Shown here: positions 9,312 to 19,311 of the stretch, piece after piece
Layout of the letters: each line of letters begins with the position of its first letter
Numbering within the stretch: position 1 is the stretch's first letter
Assembly: GCA_035653615.1 (NCBI GenBank)
Contig: DASRBN010000039.1
Location: 124,001 to 188,000, forward strand
Direction of reading: 5' to 3'
Length of the DNA stretch: 64,000 bases
From: Ktedonobacteraceae bacterium
Lineage (GTDB): Bacteria; Chloroflexota; Ktedonobacteria; Ktedonobacterales; Ktedonobacteraceae
The notes under the pieces: generated by a model
The model's input: only the letters and a program-made list of their open reading frames with translations
Databases searched by the model: none
What the model was told of the DNA's origin: nothing
Position numbers and translations under genes: made by a program

Positions 9312-9641
9312 AAGTACGGCGCCCGCTGCCACATCCTTCGCGATTTTCGCCAGGGGATGGTATTCCGGCGAGGCCAGATCAATACATAACTCGATAACCG
9401 TATTGAACATCTCGGCGATGAAGACACCGGTAATTGCCACGAAGATCATCGCAAACTCAACTGCTGAAATGCGCAGCACGATACCCAGGGCAATCGCGAG
9501 AACCGCTATAATGATGTGTACCCACATGTTGCGCTGGGTGCGAAGCGCATACCACAGTCCGGCGAAGGCATAACCAAAACTGGCAATGAATTTCGCCCAT
9601 TCGCTTTTTGGCGAACCCGCCGGTAGTGGCGATTTGCTCAT
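9240..9641 (-). CDS. dgkA: Diacylglycerol/undecaprenol kinase, DgkA family
   Basis: The 133-residue membrane protein has three hydrophobic helices and the DgkA hallmark region (AEMFNTVIELCIDL, with E and N of the active site) near residue 80, plus KIAKDVAAGAVLL. Gram-positive-type members phosphorylate undecaprenol for wall precursor recycling. Others act on diacylglycerol. The frame opens at 9659, but ATG 9641 overlaps the ybeY stop as ATGA, so I chose it. Gene order ybeY-dgkA is widely conserved. The 3' end overlaps the convergent permease gene. Confidence 0.9.
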   Translation of the reverse strand: MSKSPLPAGSPKSEWAKFIASFGYAFAGLWYALRTQRNMWVHIIIAVLAIALGIVLRISAVEFAMIFVAITGVFIAEMFNTVIELCIDLASPEYHPLAKIAKDVAAGAVLLSAILAVVIGLFVFVPHLWELIH

Positions 9642-10222
9642 TGGTTTTGCGCTTTCCACCCCATCGCTTCCAATACCGCTCGTTGTAAATTCACCATTGC
9701 GCTGTACCCGGCCTCTGTCGCATCATCGTAGCCAACGAGGTGTAAAATACCGTGAGCGAAAAGGTAGAGTAGTTCATAAGCAGGCGTATGCCCTGCTTGT
9801 GCCGCCTGGCGCACGACTGTCGGCCATGAAATGACGATATCACCTAAGTTCAGAGGTAATTCAGATGGGGTAATAAACTTTGGTAGATTGCTTGTCTCTG
9901 CGCTTACTTCGCCATTGTTGCCCTCGGCAAATGCCCAGAGCTGGTCATCGGGCGCCTTCACCAATGGTTTATCCAGTAAAGGAAATGAAAGCACATCGGT
10001 TGGTTTATCTTGCTGTCGATAACGCTTATTCAAATCTTGCATCATTGCATCTTCTGTTACGACAAGTGTCACCAGCGCAGCTTGTGAAATACCCGCTTCG
10101 CGCAGCGTCTTCTCAAGAAGCTCTTCTAGTGAAAGAGAGGCAAGTAACTCATGAATGATCGAATCGGTTTCTTCGTCTCCTGTGTCGATAGAAAGTTCTA
10201 TTTCTGATTTGTATTTTTCCAT
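9638..10222 (-). CDS. ybeY: YbeY-family endoribonuclease with altered zinc site
   Basis: The 194-residue protein matches YbeY, the metal-dependent RNase for rRNA 3' maturation and ribosome quality control. It has LNKRYRQQDKPTDVLSFP and the C-terminal signature HGILHLVGYDD. The family signature is HGxLHLxGYDH, and the third histidine, a zinc ligand, is Asp here. The N-terminal 25 residues are acidic and longer than usual. There is an insertion of about 25 residues after the LSFP motif (KAPDDQLWAFAEGN region). It is coupled to dgkA by an ATGA overlap. Confidence 0.88.
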   Translation of the reverse strand: MEKYKSEIELSIDTGDEETDSIIHELLASLSLEELLEKTLREAGISQAALVTLVVTEDAMMQDLNKRYRQQDKPTDVLSFPLLDKPLVKAPDDQLWAFAEGNNGEVSAETSNLPKFITPSELPLNLGDIVISWPTVVRQAAQAGHTPAYELLYLFAHGILHLVGYDDATEAGYSAMVNLQRAVLEAMGWKAQNQ

Positions 10223-10761: not shown

Positions 10762-11508
10762 CTAGATGTAAACGCCTCCGTTAATACTGATAGCCTGGGC
10801 AGTCATGTAATCGGCTTCAGTGACAATATACCTCACGCACGAGGCAATCTCTTCTGCCGTGCCGAAGCGCGCCATGGGAATCTTTTCCAGGATACGCTGG
10901 CGTATGTTCTCCGGTACTTCAAACAACATATCGGTCTCTGTGAAGCCTGGGCAGACCGCATTGACCGTAATGCCGTGACGAGCAACCTCAAGCGCTACTG
11001 ATTTGGTGAATCCGATGATGCCTGCCTTGGTCGCGGCATAGTTTGCCTGTCCAATATTGCCTGCCAGGGCCACAAAAGAACTGATATTGACAATCTTGCC
11101 GCTCTTGCGCTCTAGCATAAAGGGTAAAACCTGCTTGGTGCAATTGAATGTGCTGCCAAGATTGACGTTGATTACCTCGTCCCAATGCTGCCTGGTCATA
11201 TTCTTCAGCGTTTTGTCGCGGGTGATGCCGGCGTTGTTTACTAAGATATCGATCTGGCCGAAAGTCTCGATAGTTTGCCGTACCATCTCGCCGACCTGGT
11301 CGTAATCGGTGACATCAGCGCGAATCGGCAGCGCCTGCACACCGGTCTCGCGAATCTCCTCGGCCAGCTGCTCAGCGGACTCGGCGCTGCGCGCGTAGTT
11401 GATAACCACATTTGCCCCTGTAAGGGCCAGTTCTTTCGCTATCGCCCGGCCAATACCGCGGCCCGCTCCAGTTACAATGGCAGTTTTACCGTCCAGTCGT
11501 CTGCACAT
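10762..11508 (-). CDS. phaB: Acetoacetyl-CoA reductase / 3-oxoacyl-ACP reductase
   Basis: The 248-residue short-chain dehydrogenase has a TGAGRGIG cofactor loop (residues 14-21), an NNAG motif, catalytic Ser in NISSF and YAATK (Tyr-x3-Lys). It reduces acetoacetyl-CoA (or 3-oxoacyl-ACP) with NADPH to the R-3-hydroxy form, the PHA monomer precursor. Sequence alone cannot separate PhaB from FabG. Position next to phaC/phaE favours PhaB. AAGGAGGAG lies 6 nt before the ATG. It is separated from the class III phaC by about 480 nt, so it may have its own promoter. Confidence 0.85.
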   Translation of the reverse strand: MCRRLDGKTAIVTGAGRGIGRAIAKELALTGANVVINYARSAESAEQLAEEIRETGVQALPIRADVTDYDQVGEMVRQTIETFGQIDILVNNAGITRDKTLKNMTRQHWDEVINVNLGSTFNCTKQVLPFMLERKSGKIVNISSFVALAGNIGQANYAATKAGIIGFTKSVALEVARHGITVNAVCPGFTETDMLFEVPENIRQRILEKIPMARFGTAEEIASCVRYIVTEADYMTAQAISINGGVYI

Positions 11509-11986: not shown

Positions 11987-13060
11987 CTAAACTGAACGAG
12001 GCTCCAACCAGCTCTCGATCTTGGGCCAGAGATTCCTCCTGGCATCGGCGCCCGTCAGCAGGCCCACATGTCCGGCGTTGAGAACGTAGAATTCCTTATC
12101 CTGGCTGCTAATCAGGCGCATAATGGCCTCGGCTTGCGGCAGAGTGCAGATGTGATCCTTTTTTCCCGCGATATCAAGGACGGGGCAGGTAATATTTGAG
12201 AGGTCTACTCTTCGCCCGCGCAGCATGATCTCGCCCTTGACCAGCTTATTCTGCTGGTAAAACTCGCGAATCCATTGCTTGAACGTGGCTCCGGCGAAAG
12301 GCACACCGTCGTTTACCCATTTGTTCATCGCCAGCCATGTTTCCATCGGCTTATCGTGCATGATGCGGTCCCACATGGTCACGTATGTTCCAACATAGTT
12401 GGTAACTGGCCTCACCAGGCGATTGCCCGTATCAACAAGTTCACCGGGCACATTACCATAGAGATCTACCAGCACGTCGGGATCGAAATGTTTCTCGCTG
12501 GTGAACACTCCGTACAAGCCCATGTTTTCCTCGGTAAAATCTATGGGCGCGGTCAGCAGGATCAGATTCTTCAGGGGTTTACCGGGGAAGAGCGCGGCAT
12601 ACATTGCGCACATGGTGCCACCCATGCAGAATCCAAAGAGGGTGAGTTCATCGGCCTGGGACGTTTTCAATACTTTTTTCACGGCGCGAGCGATGTAGTC
12701 CAGTACGTAGTTTTCAAATGTGAGGTCTTTATCTTCATCGCCGGGGGTGCCCCAGTCAAGCATATAGACATCAAAACCCTTGTTGACAAGATATTCTACC
12801 AGGCTGTTGCCGGGCATCAGGTCTAAAACGTAGGAGCGATTGATCAATGCATAAATCAGCAGAATCGGCACCGGGAAGCGCTTTTTCACCGGGGATAGAT
12901 AGTGGTAGAGTTGAGCCTTGTTCTTTGTCCAGATCACCTCTTTCGGCGTCTGTCCTGTGTCGGCTTTTGCTCCATCCAGAACAATCCGCATACCAGTTTT
13001 AAGCTTTTTTAATGTACTTTCGATATCACTAAACGGTGATGCGCTATGCTCAATAGCCAT
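11987..13060 (-). CDS. phaC: Class III PHA synthase catalytic subunit PhaC
   Basis: The 357-residue protein has the length of class III/IV PhaC. The lipase-like box GFCMGG places the nucleophile at Cys145. Asp302 (GKKDHI) and His331 (NAGHVGLL) complete the triad at the positions known for class III enzymes. It polymerises R-3-hydroxyacyl-CoA into granule polyester and needs a PhaE or PhaR partner. phaE is encoded directly upstream (58-nt gap). A GAGGGG ribosome site precedes the ATG. Confidence 0.92.
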   Translation of the reverse strand: MAIEHSASPFSDIESTLKKLKTGMRIVLDGAKADTGQTPKEVIWTKNKAQLYHYLSPVKKRFPVPILLIYALINRSYVLDLMPGNSLVEYLVNKGFDVYMLDWGTPGDEDKDLTFENYVLDYIARAVKKVLKTSQADELTLFGFCMGGTMCAMYAALFPGKPLKNLILLTAPIDFTEENMGLYGVFTSEKHFDPDVLVDLYGNVPGELVDTGNRLVRPVTNYVGTYVTMWDRIMHDKPMETWLAMNKWVNDGVPFAGATFKQWIREFYQQNKLVKGEIMLRGRRVDLSNITCPVLDIAGKKDHICTLPQAEAIMRLISSQDKEFYVLNAGHVGLLTGADARRNLWPKIESWLEPRSV

Positions 13061-13118: not shown

Positions 13119-14126
13119 TTACGACCCGGCTTCAGCAGGTTGACCGGCGGCCTCTGTTTGAGACGCCTTTTTCCTTTGAGGCTTATGAGGTGCCCGCGCT
13201 TTCGCTTCGCCATGGCCGTCAGGCTCATAAGCCTCGAGCTTTGAAAACTTCGTCAAGATAGTATCCAGCTTGCCTTCAACCTGTTCCAGGCGTTGGGCCA
13301 GGTCCTGGATTGCCCTGAACTGTCCAGCTTGCTCTTGAAGCGCATCCAGCTTACCCTCAACCGTGGCTAAGCGACTCTCCAGCTCTGGAGCAATCGTGGC
13401 CGCCTGGCTCTCAATATGCTTCAAGTATACTTCGATACTGGAAATCGCCTGAGTTAGCTGGCTCCCAGCCTGCTGCACGTTTCCTTCTACGCTGGCAATA
13501 GATTGATTTAGGCGACTCTCGGCAGCTGCCAGGCGATGCTCAATGCCCTCAATCGCCTCGCGCTTTACGGTTTGAGCGAGGGCAGCGTCAACATCCTCAA
13601 ACCTCTCGTCTAGCCGGTCAAACTTCTCTTCCAGGGCAACAACGAGTTCGGATACGTGCGATACATCGGAGCGCGAGGGCAATTGCAAGATGCGCAGGTA
13701 CTCTTCGTTGGCGCGCCGGAATGCCCGCGAGAAACTGGCATAGCTTTCCAGAAACTGCTTGTTGAATTCGAGGAATTGTTCGGAAGCGATGATGCGTTCG
13801 ACTATGCTAGACCAGGATTCGCTAATAGCGTCGTACCACTCTTTCAGGAAAGTGAAAGGGTCGGACGGGACGGTTCCTCCGGCCAGCAATTTCTCCTGTA
13901 TCGCCTCCATCATCTCCAGCCATTGTGAAGTAAGTCCTAACGGGTCGGTTCCCATTTCAGCAGTTTTTTGCCAGGTAGACATCGTCGCATCAAGCCATTG
14001 TTTCCAGGCTTCTCTTGAATTTTGCATGCCCTGGGCTGTCGCTTTCAGAACCTGATCTTGCCCTTCTTGCAGGTTTTTTAACCAGAGCTGGTAAAAGCCG
14101 TAGGAGTCTGAGTTAGCCTCTTTCAC
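13119..14126 (-). CDS. phaE: Class III PHA synthase subunit PhaE
   Basis: The 335-residue protein has a Trp-rich helical N-terminal two thirds (LTSQWLEMMEAIQEKL, FTFLKEWYDAISESW) typical of PhaE. A long coiled coil follows at about 175-300 (repeated ALEEKFDRLDERF and RLAAAESRLN patterns), with a Lys/Ala-rich tail. Its length fits PhaE, not the shorter PhaR of class IV. It activates PhaC in a granule-bound complex. Its ATG overlaps the phaQ stop (ATGA), so phaQ-phaE-phaC form one operon. The extended coiled coil is longer than I would expect for PhaE. Confidence 0.8.
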   Translation of the reverse strand: MKEANSDSYGFYQLWLKNLQEGQDQVLKATAQGMQNSREAWKQWLDATMSTWQKTAEMGTDPLGLTSQWLEMMEAIQEKLLAGGTVPSDPFTFLKEWYDAISESWSSIVERIIASEQFLEFNKQFLESYASFSRAFRRANEEYLRILQLPSRSDVSHVSELVVALEEKFDRLDERFEDVDAALAQTVKREAIEGIEHRLAAAESRLNQSIASVEGNVQQAGSQLTQAISSIEVYLKHIESQAATIAPELESRLATVEGKLDALQEQAGQFRAIQDLAQRLEQVEGKLDTILTKFSKLEAYEPDGHGEAKARAPHKPQRKKASQTEAAGQPAEAGS

Positions 14127-14536
14127 TTTTCATCCTTCTTTTCTTTTGGCGATGGCCTGCCGGTATAGATGCGGAAGAACGCATCCATCATCTTCTGGTA
14201 CTGGTCCAATGACTCTGCCCAGAACTTCAGGTAAGCCTCACCAGCCTCGGTAATCTTGTATATGCGCCTGGCAGGGCCGCCCTCTGAGGTATCCCAACTG
14301 GAACTGACCATGCCTTGCTTTTCCATTTGCCGCAGTGTTCGATAGAACGTCCCCGGATTCATCGCTGCCAGGCCAAATGCTGCCATCTTCTCCATCAATT
14401 CATACCCATAGGAACTCCACTCGCGCAGCATGAGCAGCACGACCGGCACAACCCAGTTCTTCGACCACGCATCCGTGGCAGAATTTTGAAATTCTTTTTC
14501 CTGATCCTTCTCTTGATCCTCGTTCATATGCACCAT
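14123..14536 (-). CDS. phaQ: PhaQ-like PadR-family PHA-responsive repressor
   Basis: The protein has a PadR winged helix: VVPVVLLMLREWSSYGYEL, then NPGTFYRTLRQMEKQGMV and a beta-wing with PARRIYKITEAGEAYL. PhaQ of Bacillus represses phaQ and phasin genes until it senses PHA. This gene heads phaQ-phaE-phaC, which fits. The frame opens at 14554. ATG 14536 has a GGTGG stretch and gives 137 residues, but the start is uncertain. The dyad at 14604-14631 over its own promoter, repeated at the phasin promoter, is its likely operator. Confidence 0.8.
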   Translation of the reverse strand: MVHMNEDQEKDQEKEFQNSATDAWSKNWVVPVVLLMLREWSSYGYELMEKMAAFGLAAMNPGTFYRTLRQMEKQGMVSSSWDTSEGGPARRIYKITEAGEAYLKFWAESLDQYQKMMDAFFRIYTGRPSPKEKKDEK

Positions 14537-14603
14537 AATAATGCCACCACCCATTATTCAGTAATATAATAGCCCTTTAGCTTGCGTTTGAATTGACATT
14601 TTA

Positions 14604-14643
14604 CATCTATATGCATTTTACATCTAGATGCACGCTTTGTCAA
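14604..14643 (-). promoter_or_regulatory. phaQ-phaE-phaC promoter with PhaQ-type operator
   Basis: On the minus strand there is TTGACA (14643-14638), a 17-nt spacer and TAAAAT (14620-14615). A dyad with arms GCATCTAGATG and CATATAGATG flanks the spacer TAAAATG, so it covers the -10 box. A further ATGTAAAATG copy follows. The same layout occurs at 19271-19311. Confidence 0.75.
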
Positions 14644-14656
14644 GACAACGTCCTGG

Positions 14657-15718
14657 TTATTTCCTCTCCACAAGCCGGGCTGTGTATTCTATAAGGGCAC
14701 GCACACGATTGCCGAAAGCCGCGAAGCGTTCATCCTGCGTTTGCCCGCGCTTCCAGCGTACATAAATCTGCTGGATAATTACGGCCAGCTTGAAATACGC
14801 GAAGATCAGGTAAAAATCGAGCGAGGAGAGATCGCGCCCGCTCTTTTGCGCGTACATTTCCATAAATTGCTCGCGGTTGATGAAACCGGGCATCGTGGTT
14901 ACCGCGGGCAGGACTGTGCGCAGTTCTTCCGGATCATCGCTATTCACCCAGTAACTCAATGTAATGGCGAGATCAAAAAGTGGATCGCCGATGGTCGCCA
15001 TTTCCCAATCCAGCACTGCTGTTACCCTGGTCAGGTCATCTGCAGCCAGCAGCATGTTATTCAATTTGAAATCATTGTGAATAAGCGTTGCCGGTGGGCT
15101 TTGTGGCACGTGTTCTGCCAGCCAGCTGGTGAGAGGTACAACCTGGGGAATTTCATCGGTTTGCGCGCGGAAATAGCGCTCGATCCAGCCCTTTACCTGG
15201 CGTGCGAGAAAACCTTCGGGATGCCCAAACTCGCTCAATCCTGCCGCCTGCCAGTCGATAGCGTGTATCTGCACCAATGTCTCGACGACCGTTTGCGACA
15301 TGCGGGCGCATAATTCTTCTGTAGGTGTGACGCCGGGCGGGAACCTGTCATTGACAACCACCCCTCTGCGTCTTTCCATCACATAAAAGGGCGCACCTAA
15401 AATGTTCAGGTCGTTGCAGAAGAAGTAGGGCATGGGCGCGAGGGGAAAGACGGGAGCAATCTTGCGCAACAGGCCGGATTCCCTTTCCATATCGTGGGCT
15501 TTTGGTGGAACCGGGCCAAACGGCGGGCGGCGCAGCACACCTTCCCAATCGCCTATTTGCAGCAAGTATGTCAGATTAGAAGCCCCGGATGGGAACTGCC
15601 TGACACGCAATGGGCCGGGGCCTAAGCCCTCGATATGCTCGCGCAGGTATTGTTCCACCTTTGGAACGTCAAAATCCTCTCCTGAGCGAATAGCAATTGT
15701 CTCGTCCTGAACGTTCAT
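14657..15718 (-). CDS. APH-family phosphotransferase (ACAD10/11 kinase-like)
   Basis: The 353-residue protein has the aminoglycoside-phosphotransferase/choline-kinase fold. It has a Gly/Ser loop near residue 40 (PSGASNLTY), LIHNDFKLNNML (catalytic HxDxxxxN) and AVLDWEMATIGDPLFDLA (metal Asp). The closest theme is the kinase domain fused to human ACAD10/11 and found with fatty-acid genes in bacteria, which phosphorylates 4-hydroxyacyl-CoA. That link is family knowledge, not shown here. It follows the class I phaC by 23 nt, so a role in hydroxyacyl-CoA supply or salvage is likely. The longer frame to 15865 overlaps phaC and is unlikely. Confidence 0.8.
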   Translation of the reverse strand: MNVQDETIAIRSGEDFDVPKVEQYLREHIEGLGPGPLRVRQFPSGASNLTYLLQIGDWEGVLRRPPFGPVPPKAHDMERESGLLRKIAPVFPLAPMPYFFCNDLNILGAPFYVMERRRGVVVNDRFPPGVTPTEELCARMSQTVVETLVQIHAIDWQAAGLSEFGHPEGFLARQVKGWIERYFRAQTDEIPQVVPLTSWLAEHVPQSPPATLIHNDFKLNNMLLAADDLTRVTAVLDWEMATIGDPLFDLAITLSYWVNSDDPEELRTVLPAVTTMPGFINREQFMEMYAQKSGRDLSSLDFYLIFAYFKLAVIIQQIYVRWKRGQTQDERFAAFGNRVRALIEYTARLVERK

Positions 15719-15741
15719 CCTTGTACATTGCCCCTTTTCTT

Positions 15742-17574
15742 TTACTTTTCCAGCACGTAGCTGCCCGGCGCCGGCATAAGTGGTGGATAAGCAGCGCTGC
15801 CCATTGTTGGTGGCGCTGCCAGTTCGCCTGAACGCAGTTTTAGCCACTCCAGCCAGTCTGCCCACCAGCTACCATCGTGATGCTCTGCCGACTTGAACCA
15901 TTCATCGGCGCTCTTTACGGGCTTATCGTTCGTCCAGTAGCCTCTTCCCTTGCTCGGTGGATTGATGATACCGGCGATATGACCGCTGCCGCCCAGCACG
16001 AAACGCGACTTGCCACTGGCGAGCTGCGTAATTCTCCAGGCCGATTTCCAGGGGACGATATGGTCCTGTTGCGTGCCGACCGCGTAGATATCCTGGTCAA
16101 TTTTGCCCAGATCGATAGGCACTCCTTTCAAGACAATCTTATTGGGCTTGATAAGATTGTTCTCCAGGTAGGTATTGCGCAGGTAGAAGGAGTGCGCTTT
16201 GCGGGCCATACGTGTCCCATCATTGTTCCAGTAGAGCAGGTCAAAGGCAGGTGGCTCCTTGCCCAGCAGGTAGTTGTTGACGACATTGCTCCAGATCAGG
16301 TCATTCGCGCGCAGCATGTTGAACATCGTCGCCATCGAGCGGCTATCCAGGTAGCCGCGCTCCATCATCTGTCCCTCGATATACCTCACCTGTGGCTCGT
16401 CGATGAAGACCGATGTATCGCCAACCTCGCTGAAATCTTGCAGGGAGACGAAGAACGTCGCTGAGTTAGCCGTTTCATCTCCTTTGGCTTTCATATAAGG
16501 CAATGCCATTGACAGCAGCGTGCCACCGATACAATAGCCCACCATATTGACCTTTTGCGATCTGGTGATCTCTTTAATCACATCCAGGGCGGCCAGCGGC
16601 CCCAATGTGAGATAATCCTCAAAGCTGGTCTCCTCCATCGAGGCGTCCGGGTTCTTCCAGCTGATGACAAAAACGGTGAAGCCATTGTCAACCAGAAACT
16701 TGATGAGGCTATTTTGTGGCTGCATATCCAGGATATAATACTTATTGATCCATGGCGGGATGAAGAGCAAGGGGATCGCGTAGACCTTTTCGGTCGAGGG
16801 TGTGTACTGGATCAGTTCGATCAGCTTGTTGCGATAGACCACCTGCCCGGGAGTAAGCGCGAGGTTGCGTCCAGGTTCAAAAGCCCCGGTATCGGTCATC
16901 TTAATCTGACCTGCTTCAATATCGCGTAGCAGGTGCTCCACACCATTTACCAGGTTTTTACCACCCGTTGTAATCGCCTCATGAATGACCTGCGGGTTCG
17001 TGAAAACGTAATTGGTGGGACTGATCGCATCGAGGAACTGGCGCAGGTAGAAGATTAACTTGCGTTGTTGTTTCTCATCCAGTCCCTGAACCTCCGAGGC
17101 GGTTTTCAGCAATGTCGTCGCGGCCAGAAGATAGCCCTGTTTGAGCGCATCGAAGGCCGGGTTGAGCTGCCAATCGGGCGCGTTAAAACGTTTATCGCCT
17201 TTCTCCGGGACGGCAACCGGCTCAGCATCCGTTTTAATACCCCAGAATTTGAGCGCCGTCGAGGTCACTAACTGCGTATATTCCTGGACGAAATTGGTGT
17301 AATTGGCCCAGTAACGCGCCGGGTTGCTCAGGGCGTCCAGCCAGATCTGCTGGAAGGCGCGCGCTATTTCTCCCGGGTCGATGGGCAATAATTTGCTATA
17401 GGGGTTAGCTTTCCAGAGCTGGTCAATGAAATTGGCCCAGGGATCATCCTTGCCGTCCGCAGCCTGTTTAACGGTCGTTTCCTGGTCGGTGTAAGGTTTC
17501 ATCGTGCTTTCAAACAGCTTGCTCCAGGCCTCGAATGCACCCGGTTCGGATGGTGAAGTGTATGTATCTGCCAT
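15742..17574 (-). CDS. phaC: Class I-type PHA synthase PhaC
   Basis: The 610-residue protein has the length of class I PhaC. The N-terminal domain (about 1-240) includes WxxNPxxRYW-like features. The alpha/beta-hydrolase domain has GYCIGG (Cys348), Asp504 (TQQDHIVPW) and His532 (GGSGHIAGI). It makes short-chain PHA without PhaE. It differs strongly from the 357-residue synthase nearby, so the locus holds two synthase classes. A phosphotransferase gene follows in the same operon. Regulation is unclear: no copy of the PhaQ dyad was seen upstream. Confidence 0.92.
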   Translation of the reverse strand: MADTYTSPSEPGAFEAWSKLFESTMKPYTDQETTVKQAADGKDDPWANFIDQLWKANPYSKLLPIDPGEIARAFQQIWLDALSNPARYWANYTNFVQEYTQLVTSTALKFWGIKTDAEPVAVPEKGDKRFNAPDWQLNPAFDALKQGYLLAATTLLKTASEVQGLDEKQQRKLIFYLRQFLDAISPTNYVFTNPQVIHEAITTGGKNLVNGVEHLLRDIEAGQIKMTDTGAFEPGRNLALTPGQVVYRNKLIELIQYTPSTEKVYAIPLLFIPPWINKYYILDMQPQNSLIKFLVDNGFTVFVISWKNPDASMEETSFEDYLTLGPLAALDVIKEITRSQKVNMVGYCIGGTLLSMALPYMKAKGDETANSATFFVSLQDFSEVGDTSVFIDEPQVRYIEGQMMERGYLDSRSMATMFNMLRANDLIWSNVVNNYLLGKEPPAFDLLYWNNDGTRMARKAHSFYLRNTYLENNLIKPNKIVLKGVPIDLGKIDQDIYAVGTQQDHIVPWKSAWRITQLASGKSRFVLGGSGHIAGIINPPSKGRGYWTNDKPVKSADEWFKSAEHHDGSWWADWLEWLKLRSGELAAPPTMGSAAYPPLMPAPGSYVLEK

Positions 17575-17782
17575 AATGCAGGCTCCTTTATATACTCAAA
17601 AAAGCTGAGGCAATACCTGAAAGCTCTTGTGAGAGCTTACCTGATGAATGGGATGATTCTGTCTGTCTACACTGTATTATATCTCACGAGAAGAGGTATA
17701 ATTAGTTTCTACAGCGTTTTTTTCAAGGACCTCTTTTCGCCTACCCCTGAACGCGATAGGCGATATCATCAGCTAATCCAGC

Positions 17783-17811
17783 TTGACATTCGCCGTATAA
17801 ACTGTCAAAAT
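17783..17811 (+). promoter_or_regulatory. Probable promoter of cardiolipin synthase
   Basis: TTGACA (17783-17788), a 17-nt spacer and CAAAAT (17806-17811) lie 73 nt before the cls ATG. The rest of the 310-nt gap (17575-17782) separates the divergent phaC. It contains AT-rich sequence with a TATAAT-like box on the minus strand near 17684-17689, but no -35 that I can defend. Confidence 0.5.
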
Positions 17812-17884
17812 CGGTAAACGAAATGAGCAATGCCAATTACAGAGCGGTGTAATGAAAGAAAAAACATCGCGTGGGTGAATCTGA

Positions 17885-19180
17885 ATGAGCGAAAACGCGC
17901 TAAAGGAACAAGTACAGGCAAGGCAGAAGGGACCTATCGTTCATAGAAGGCCCCGGATTTCTATTCGCCGCATTGCGCTGCATGCGTTCGGCATAATGGT
18001 TGCACTGCAAGCAATCACAGTAGCAGCGCTGCGGGTAGTGGCAATCGTGTACCGGCGGAAGCGAAAGAACGATCAAAAGCCCTTTCCACACCGGCGCTTT
18101 CAGCCTGTGCATGTCGATAGTAATGAACTCCAGCTCTATGACTATGGATGCGATCTCTATGAAGATATGCTGGCCGCTATCGATAGCGCTAAGGAATATA
18201 TCTACCTTGAAACCTACATCTGGAAAGATGATGAGATCGGCAGGAAGTTTAAAGAACACCTGGCAAAAAAAGCTGCCGAGGGAGTAGAAGTATACGTCGT
18301 CTTCGACTGGTTCGGCAATCTTGTCGTACCACGGGCATTCAAATCGTTTCCTTCCTCGATCCATAAGATGGCCTATCACCCTATCAAACACCCATGGCAG
18401 CTCTTTGATCCACGGCGCTATGCGCTCGATCATCGCAAAATGCTCTCGGTTGATGGCAAGATCGGGTTCATCGGCGGCTTCAACCTGGGTAGTCTCTACG
18501 CGACGGAATGGCGAGATACACACCTGCGTATCACCGGGCCATTCGCTGCCGACCTGGCGCGCGCGTTCATCGACTTCTGGAACCGCTCCAGCCCTAAAGG
18601 TGACACTATCAACCGGCGTATGCAGCGAAAGTTTGATCCGTTCATCTCTTTGCGTGGAAATGATGCCATACGCCTGACCTTTCCTATTCGCGATATGTAT
18701 ATCGATGCGATTGACAAGGCGGAACATTCGATCATGCTCACTAATGCGTACTTTGTTCCCGATCACATTTTGTTGGGGGCTTTAAAATCTGCCGCCGCTC
18801 GTGGAGTGGAGGTACGAATTCTGGTGCCCTGGGTCTCCAATCATATCGACGTTGACTGGGTAGCGCGAGGCTACTTTCATGAGTGTCTCAAAGCAGGGAT
18901 TCGCATCTTCGGTTATCAGCATATGTTGCACGCTAAGACATGTACAATTGATGGTCAATGGTCCACGATCGGTACCGCTAACCTTGATCGTTTGAGTTCC
19001 ATCGGAAATTTTGAAATCAATGTCGAGGTGTACAGTGCTGAGTTCGCGCAGCAAATGCAGGAACTCTTCGAATGCGACCTGACCGATGCTGAAGAGCTAA
19101 CACTCGATAAGTGGGTACACCGGCACTGGTACACGAAGTTGAGCGAACGCATTCTGGCCCCGCTGCGTTTTATGATGTGA
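17885..19180 (+). CDS. cls: Cardiolipin synthase, phospholipase D family
   Basis: The 431-residue protein has an N-terminal membrane segment (about 28-52) and two HKD motifs: LDHRKMLSVDGKIGFIGG (near 180) and MLHAKTCTIDGQWSTIGT (near 345). The enzyme joins two phosphatidylglycerols, or a PG and another head group, at the membrane. A 288-codon antisense frame inside it is a shadow. It lies between the class I phaC and the phasin gene and has its own promoter. Confidence 0.92.
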   Translation: MSENALKEQVQARQKGPIVHRRPRISIRRIALHAFGIMVALQAITVAALRVVAIVYRRKRKNDQKPFPHRRFQPVHVDSNELQLYDYGCDLYEDMLAAIDSAKEYIYLETYIWKDDEIGRKFKEHLAKKAAEGVEVYVVFDWFGNLVVPRAFKSFPSSIHKMAYHPIKHPWQLFDPRRYALDHRKMLSVDGKIGFIGGFNLGSLYATEWRDTHLRITGPFAADLARAFIDFWNRSSPKGDTINRRMQRKFDPFISLRGNDAIRLTFPIRDMYIDAIDKAEHSIMLTNAYFVPDHILLGALKSAAARGVEVRILVPWVSNHIDVDWVARGYFHECLKAGIRIFGYQHMLHAKTCTIDGQWSTIGTANLDRLSSIGNFEINVEVYSAEFAQQMQELFECDLTDAEELTLDKWVHRHWYTKLSERILAPLRFMM

Positions 19181-19270
19181 GCGTGGTTATTCAGAGCCGT
19201 AGTCAACCATTTTCGAGGAAACTGGAAAATGGTTGGCTATGATTTGCCCCAAAAATTCCCCATGACCCCC

Positions 19271-19311
19271 TTGACAAATGTTGCATCTATATGTAAAATG
19301 CATATAGATGC
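19271..19311 (+). promoter_or_regulatory. Phasin promoter with PhaQ-type operator
   Basis: TTGACA (19271-19276), a 17-nt spacer and TAAAAT (19294-19299) form a near-consensus promoter. An 11-bp perfect dyad, GCATCTATATG (19283-19293) and CATATAGATGC (19301-19311), flanks TAAAATG and buries the -10 box. It is nearly the same as the site upstream of phaQ. The leader to the ATG at 19469 is about 160 nt. Confidence 0.8.

Follow-up and report, generated by a model that had tools for sequence, protein, structure and literature searches.

In the window (the whole stretch of DNA that was analysed, 64 000 nucleotides long), phaQ, a phaE-like gene and phaC lie on the reverse strand and a phasin-like gene lies on the forward strand (Table 1). 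PhaQ scores 142.8 bits against TIGR02719, the poly-beta-hydroxybutyrate-responsive repressor equivalog, just above the cut-off of 139.35, and 70.7 bits against PF03551 (PadR), and its AlphaFold2 model (pLDDT 77) matches PadR chains with Foldseek E values of about 1e-6 to 3e-5. Against the PhaQ profile, a single protein of the genome attains an E value of 1e-20. The phaQ start is more likely to be at 14536, behind GGGTGGTGG. Downstream, phaQ is adjoined by phaE and phaC, which is the PHA-gene context of a PhaQ, and the first 4 nt of the phaE-like gene are also the last 4 of phaQ. The phaE-like protein falls below the curated cut-offs (49.7 versus 148.4 bits for TIGR02132 and 18.3 versus 154.95 bits for TIGR01834), and its name is given on its position before phaC. 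The phasin-like protein matches PF09361 (Phasin_2) with an E value of 0.0014 and 19.2 bits, below the gathering cut-off of 24.9, and is not filed as a member of that family; the designation rests on neighbourhood, its homologues adjoining phaE, phaC and phaQ in relatives, with several of them behind the same operator. The gene identities of the first-pass annotation largely stand, with PhaQ and phaC over their cut-offs and the phasin and PhaE weak by profile.

Table 1. Coordinates of the features at the PHA locus and at related loci. Plain coordinates refer to the window; L-numbers denote loci outside it.
Feature	Position	Strand	Basis or remark
fabG/phaB-type reductase gene	10762..11508	-	TIGR01830 over cut-off; farther downstream, 480-nt gap; candidate for same transcript
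phaC, class III/IV-type PHA synthase	11987..13060	-	TIGR01836, 396.5 bits (cut-off 365.3)
phaE-like gene, PHA synthase partner subunit	13119..14126	-	Weak PhaR_Bmeg/PhaE profile matches, below cut-off; phaC-adjacent homologues in relatives
phaQ, PadR-family PHB-responsive repressor	14123..14554	-	TIGR02719, PF03551 PadR, PadR fold
Predicted operator dyad, phaQ-phaE-phaC promoter, GCATCTAGATG-TAAAATG-CATATAGATGT	14603..14631	-	Sequence; 33.3 bits (matrix)
-10 box TAAAAT, phaQ promoter	14615..14620	-	Sequence; inside dyad's spacer
-35 box TTGACA, phaQ promoter	14638..14643	-	Sequence; 17 nt from -10 box
-35 box TTGACA, phasin promoter	19271..19276	+	Sequence
Predicted operator dyad, phasin promoter, GCATCTATATG-TAAAATG-CATATAGATGC	19283..19311	+	Sequence; 34.1 bits (matrix)
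-10 box TAAAAT, phasin promoter	19294..19299	+	Sequence; inside dyad's spacer; 17-nt spacer to -35
Phasin-like gene, 198 aa	19469..20065	+	Weak Phasin_2 match; neighbourhood in relatives
Phasin-like repeat protein gene	L028:9012-9410 (G000:C42)		Just upstream of phaJ-like gene
Strong and weaker PhaQ-type operator, MaoC-domain phaJ-like gene	L028:9490-9567 and 9583-10041 (G000:C42)		
Extra predicted operators before Pat-like genes	L051:9302, L052:11070, L055:3875, L056:14291, L060:9927, L061:6695, L065:10745, L066:11181, L069:11358		

Both promoters consist of TTGACA, a 17-nt spacer and TAAAAT, with a dyad of 27–29 bp centred on the -10 box; direct reading of the sequence confirmed this shared layout as first annotated. 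The arms of the phasin dyad (GCATCTATATG and CATATAGATGC) form a perfect palindrome of 11 bp per arm, again as first described, and in the phaQ dyad two of the 22 arm positions differ, which leaves nine of the 11 pairs symmetric. With up to three mismatches allowed, the 29-bp dyad has two matches in the window compared with 0.00 in 100 dinucleotide shuffles, and a pattern search of the whole 6.59 Mb genome gave no third copy; the 29-bp form is found at these two promoters and is not spread over many unrelated ones. The matrix scores in Table 1 come from a matrix built mainly from the phaQ promoters of other species together with three Ktedonobacterial-type sites, two of which are the window dyads themselves; the genome-wide searches used patterns and not the matrix. 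A loose 19-bp core is unspecific alone, with 13 matches in the genome versus 11 in the reversed control. The sole additional match to it that was fetched and scored above 5 bits (G000:C8:17162; 15.3 bits) precedes a gene with a Mom-family match and is probably due to chance, and a three-mismatch match in G036 was set aside as being unlike the motif outside the counted bases. The phaQ operator region (14594–14621) also contains a plus-strand TTGACA 17 nt from TTTTAC, at which no plus-strand gene is evident, and a second minus-strand TAAAAT.

Between the two predicted operators (14657–17574, reverse strand) lie a class I PHA synthase gene (TIGR01838, 695.6 bits) and an APH-type kinase gene, so that two types of PHA synthase stand side by side. 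The class I phaC (15742–17574) has no operator by the matrix scan of the window, in which the next-best place after the two dyads reaches only 2.5 bits.

Searching with a slightly shorter pattern, of 27 bp, brings in a further strong site on contig C42, which belongs to this genome but lies outside the window. There, unlinked to the window, operators of 29.8 and 16.2 bits precede a gene for a MaoC-domain hydratase. Judging from its family, this protein would be a phaJ-like (R)-enoyl-CoA hydratase, the PhaJ type making (R)-3-hydroxyacyl-CoA for PHA synthase. The regulon of two promoters that had been proposed is correct in that both share the operator, but with the strong and the weaker site at the phaJ-like promoter the predicted regulon is larger than that.

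The dyad and phaQ occur together in other Chloroflexota genomes. Within the class, phaQ is present in seven of 47 genomes, and each of these seven has a class III/IV-type phaC as well; phaC without a phaQ match occurs in another two, both of them incomplete assemblies. The 21-bp core (at most two mismatches) is found in all seven genomes with phaQ versus one of the 40 without it; this exception is an assembly of 76% completeness and has the core ahead of its phasin gene. For the phylum (400 Chloroflexota genomes) the core is found in nine of the 21 that have a PhaQ match and in one of the other 379 (Fisher 4e-12, which is not an exact probability because the 400 genomes are related), and the reversed control gave none. 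A close match to the core is lacking for some of the PhaQ-like proteins from Chloroflexota outside this class (G238 C637 and G299). Gene order varies, from phaQ-E-C here to phaP-E-C in three genomes (G020, G021 and G046), phaQ-phaP with a divergent phaE-C in G015 and phaQ-E-C-C in G252; despite this rearrangement of the operon, the operator remains before phaQ or phaP. A few strong sites precede genes without a known PHA role (G046:C138, G045:C4 and G046:C867). At L022:2230-2380 (G046:C138) and L148:3000-3186 (G045:C4), which come from two genomes of one genus and have no PHA gene, the shared operator is followed by about 100 nt that are alike and contain a short open frame of about 30 codons (M-RR-D-SGSGAKG-HAKSVPLLKSIHDK); the target at these loci is possibly a small protein or an RNA.

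Loci with phaQ were collected by scanning bacterial genomes with an alignment of PhaQ; they come from Chloroflexota, Bacillota (including Priestia megaterium) and Actinomycetota (mostly Rubrobacter). The pattern TANRTG-N7-CAYNTA was fixed once the Chloroflexota sites were known, when the promoters of Bacillota and Rubrobacter had yet to be inspected. It is present without mismatch in 60 of 65 phaQ upstream regions from the three phyla, whereas dinucleotide shuffles average 0.15; the 65 loci are not all independent, many being from related species. Nearly all of these sites have a -10 box in the spacer of the dyad and a TTGAC-type -35 box 16–18 nt upstream, a distance that is 16 nt in Rubrobacter and in other groups mostly 17. 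The half-site is TATATG or TAGATG here and mostly TAGGTG in Bacillota, and the P. megaterium site before phaQ is CATCTAGGTGTAAATTACACATATGGA. Over phaQ loci totalling 0.97 Mb, the training sites among them, the matrix finds 94 sites, versus four in the reversed control. The first-pass annotation had envisaged familiar regulatory logic acting in a distant phylum through a site peculiar to it. This does not hold: Bacillota, P. megaterium among them, have the same core, with 7 bp between the half-sites and the dyad placed over the -10 box, and the operator is thus not this lineage's own. The phaQ promoters of Bacillota and Rubrobacter rule out a phylum-specific operator, and the predicted operator is old and common to Chloroflexota, Bacillota and Actinomycetota, not new to Chloroflexota.

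Extra predicted operators were observed at some of these loci. In nine Actinomycetota loci (mostly Rubrobacter; Table 1) a GNAT acetyltransferase gene that weakly matches the protein acetyltransferase Pat is preceded by one of 15–31 bits, and in three Bacillota loci (L101:4991, L103:4989 and L097:4018) one of 28–31 bits lies 58–79 nt before phaC, inside the phaRBC cluster.

The closest known system is that of B. (Priestia) megaterium, in which PhaQ is reported to repress phaQ and phaP, to respond to PHB and to hinder RNA polymerase at the phaQ promoter (Lee et al. 2004, by way of PMC9049629 and PMC8390425), in agreement with what had been noted for Bacillus. The two systems share the repressor family by TIGR02719 (42% identity; 268.8 bits there and 142.8 bits here), a dyad core (in B. 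megaterium a presumed operator) with 7-bp spacing over the -10 box, and the inclusion of both phaQ and a phasin gene in the set. They differ in that phaQ and phaP form one operon in B. megaterium, with phaRBC in a separate divergent operon, whereas here phaQ heads an operon with phaE and phaC, the phasin gene is a separate unit with its own predicted operator, and the phaJ-like gene would be a third, unlinked target. The PhaR/AniA–phasin systems of Cupriavidus, Bradyrhizobium and others are alike in outline, with a PHA-binding repressor of the phasin gene that is released by granules, but involve an unrelated protein and another DNA element, as described in PMC9049629. The PadR repressors LmrR, cdPadR1 and Rv3488 have the winged-helix fold matched by the PhaQ model, and PMC5050560 describes inverted repeats over the -35/-10 region of their own promoters; they differ from PhaQ in their half-sites and spacing, which for many are ATGT/ACAT with 8–10 nt, and in their small-molecule effectors. 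The cdPadR1 site also differs (GTACTAT...AGTA), with the predicted motif at 200 genome sites.

As the same dyad precedes phaQ in three phyla, it is very probably the binding site of PhaQ. The suggestion first made, that an operator common to the phaQ-phaE-phaC and phasin promoters marks a PhaQ regulon, has strong support: PhaQ belongs to the family, the dyad is rare in the genome and co-occurs with phaQ, and it is conserved at phaQ promoters of three phyla. We consider it highly probable that both dyads are PhaQ operators through which the phaQ-phaE-phaC, phasin and phaJ-like genes would be repressed, with relief by PHA granules. A PhaQ dimer would read the two TANRTG half-sites, and since their 7-bp spacer holds the -10 box RNA polymerase would be kept off; the position of the site is observed, and occlusion is suggested by this position and by the B. 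megaterium protein. PhaQ would in this way repress its own operon (autoregulation and synthase), the phasin gene and the unlinked phaJ-like gene. As PHA granules form, PhaQ would be drawn onto the polymer, as is reported for B. megaterium PhaQ, and synthase, granule coat and monomer supply would be switched on together; once the granules are covered by phasin, PhaQ would return to the DNA. These sensing steps are modelled on B. megaterium PhaQ and on the PhaR/phasin model of other bacteria.

Other readings of the dyad were weighed against this one. The genome has other PadR-like candidates (16 at first look), and a second PadR-type protein or an unrelated repressor might read the dyad and control the PHA genes, phaQ being only a target. 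This is improbable, as the dyad tracks phaQ across genomes and lies directly before it at most loci in the three phyla, a single protein reaches the stringent PhaQ-profile threshold given above, and autoregulation of phaQ is reported for B. megaterium (PMC9049629). Activation or fine-tuning by bound PhaQ, with repression only at high PhaQ levels, would suit promoters that are strong and near consensus; however, near-consensus -35 and -10 boxes need no activator, a site over the -10 box is in the typical position for repression, and the B. megaterium protein is a repressor (PMC9049629), which makes this reading very improbable.

The dyad is also an inverted repeat near gene starts, as a chance similarity, a repeat element or a transcript hairpin might be. 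Against this stand the expectation of 0.00 in shuffles, the lack of repetition elsewhere in the genome and the conservation over phyla; moreover, leaders diverge while the dyad is kept, and most of the dyad would be untranscribed owing to its overlap with the -10 box. We regard this explanation as having almost no likelihood.

A possible clue to sensing lies beside the phaJ-like gene, where a tblastn match to PhaQ, seemingly a second PadR gene, is really the phasin-like repeat protein. The C-terminal helix of PhaQ (YKITEAGEAYLKFWAESLDQYQKMMDAFFR) is identical to the repeats of this protein at 15 of 29 positions (z of 12.7 against shuffles), with other PhaQs giving z of 7.4–11.5 and other PadR proteins from the same searches 2.9–6.0; because shuffling loses the helix periodicity, the likeness is a lead and not a demonstration. 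Against the TIGR02719 profile the repeat protein scores 28 bits (positions 95–117), far below the cut-off. Speculatively, the C-terminal helix could act as a granule sensor. It is a tentative proposal, and one we would sooner doubt than accept, that an ancient PhaQ–operator pair, kept through three phyla and rearranged operons, runs the full PHA regulon of synthase, coat and monomer supply and that PhaQ also detects the granule by means of a C-terminal helix akin to the phasin-like repeats. If true, the repressor would carry a piece of the granule coat and be titrated by the bare granule surface.

Taken as a whole, the locus is a new case of a PhaQ system of known type, well supported by comparative evidence, with a corrected account of the predicted operator, which is common to several phyla, and a regulon that is probably wider than had been proposed. 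In the literature searched we found no cross-phylum PhaQ-operator consensus. The consensus TANRTG-N7-CAYNTA over the -10 box, given here for the predicted operator, would allow PhaQ regulons to be predicted in any genome from its sequence. It extends predicted PhaQ regulons to Chloroflexota and Actinomycetota and adds a monomer-supply gene to them, and the likeness between the PhaQ helix and the phasin-like repeats suggests a testable route by which a repressor may sense an insoluble polymer.
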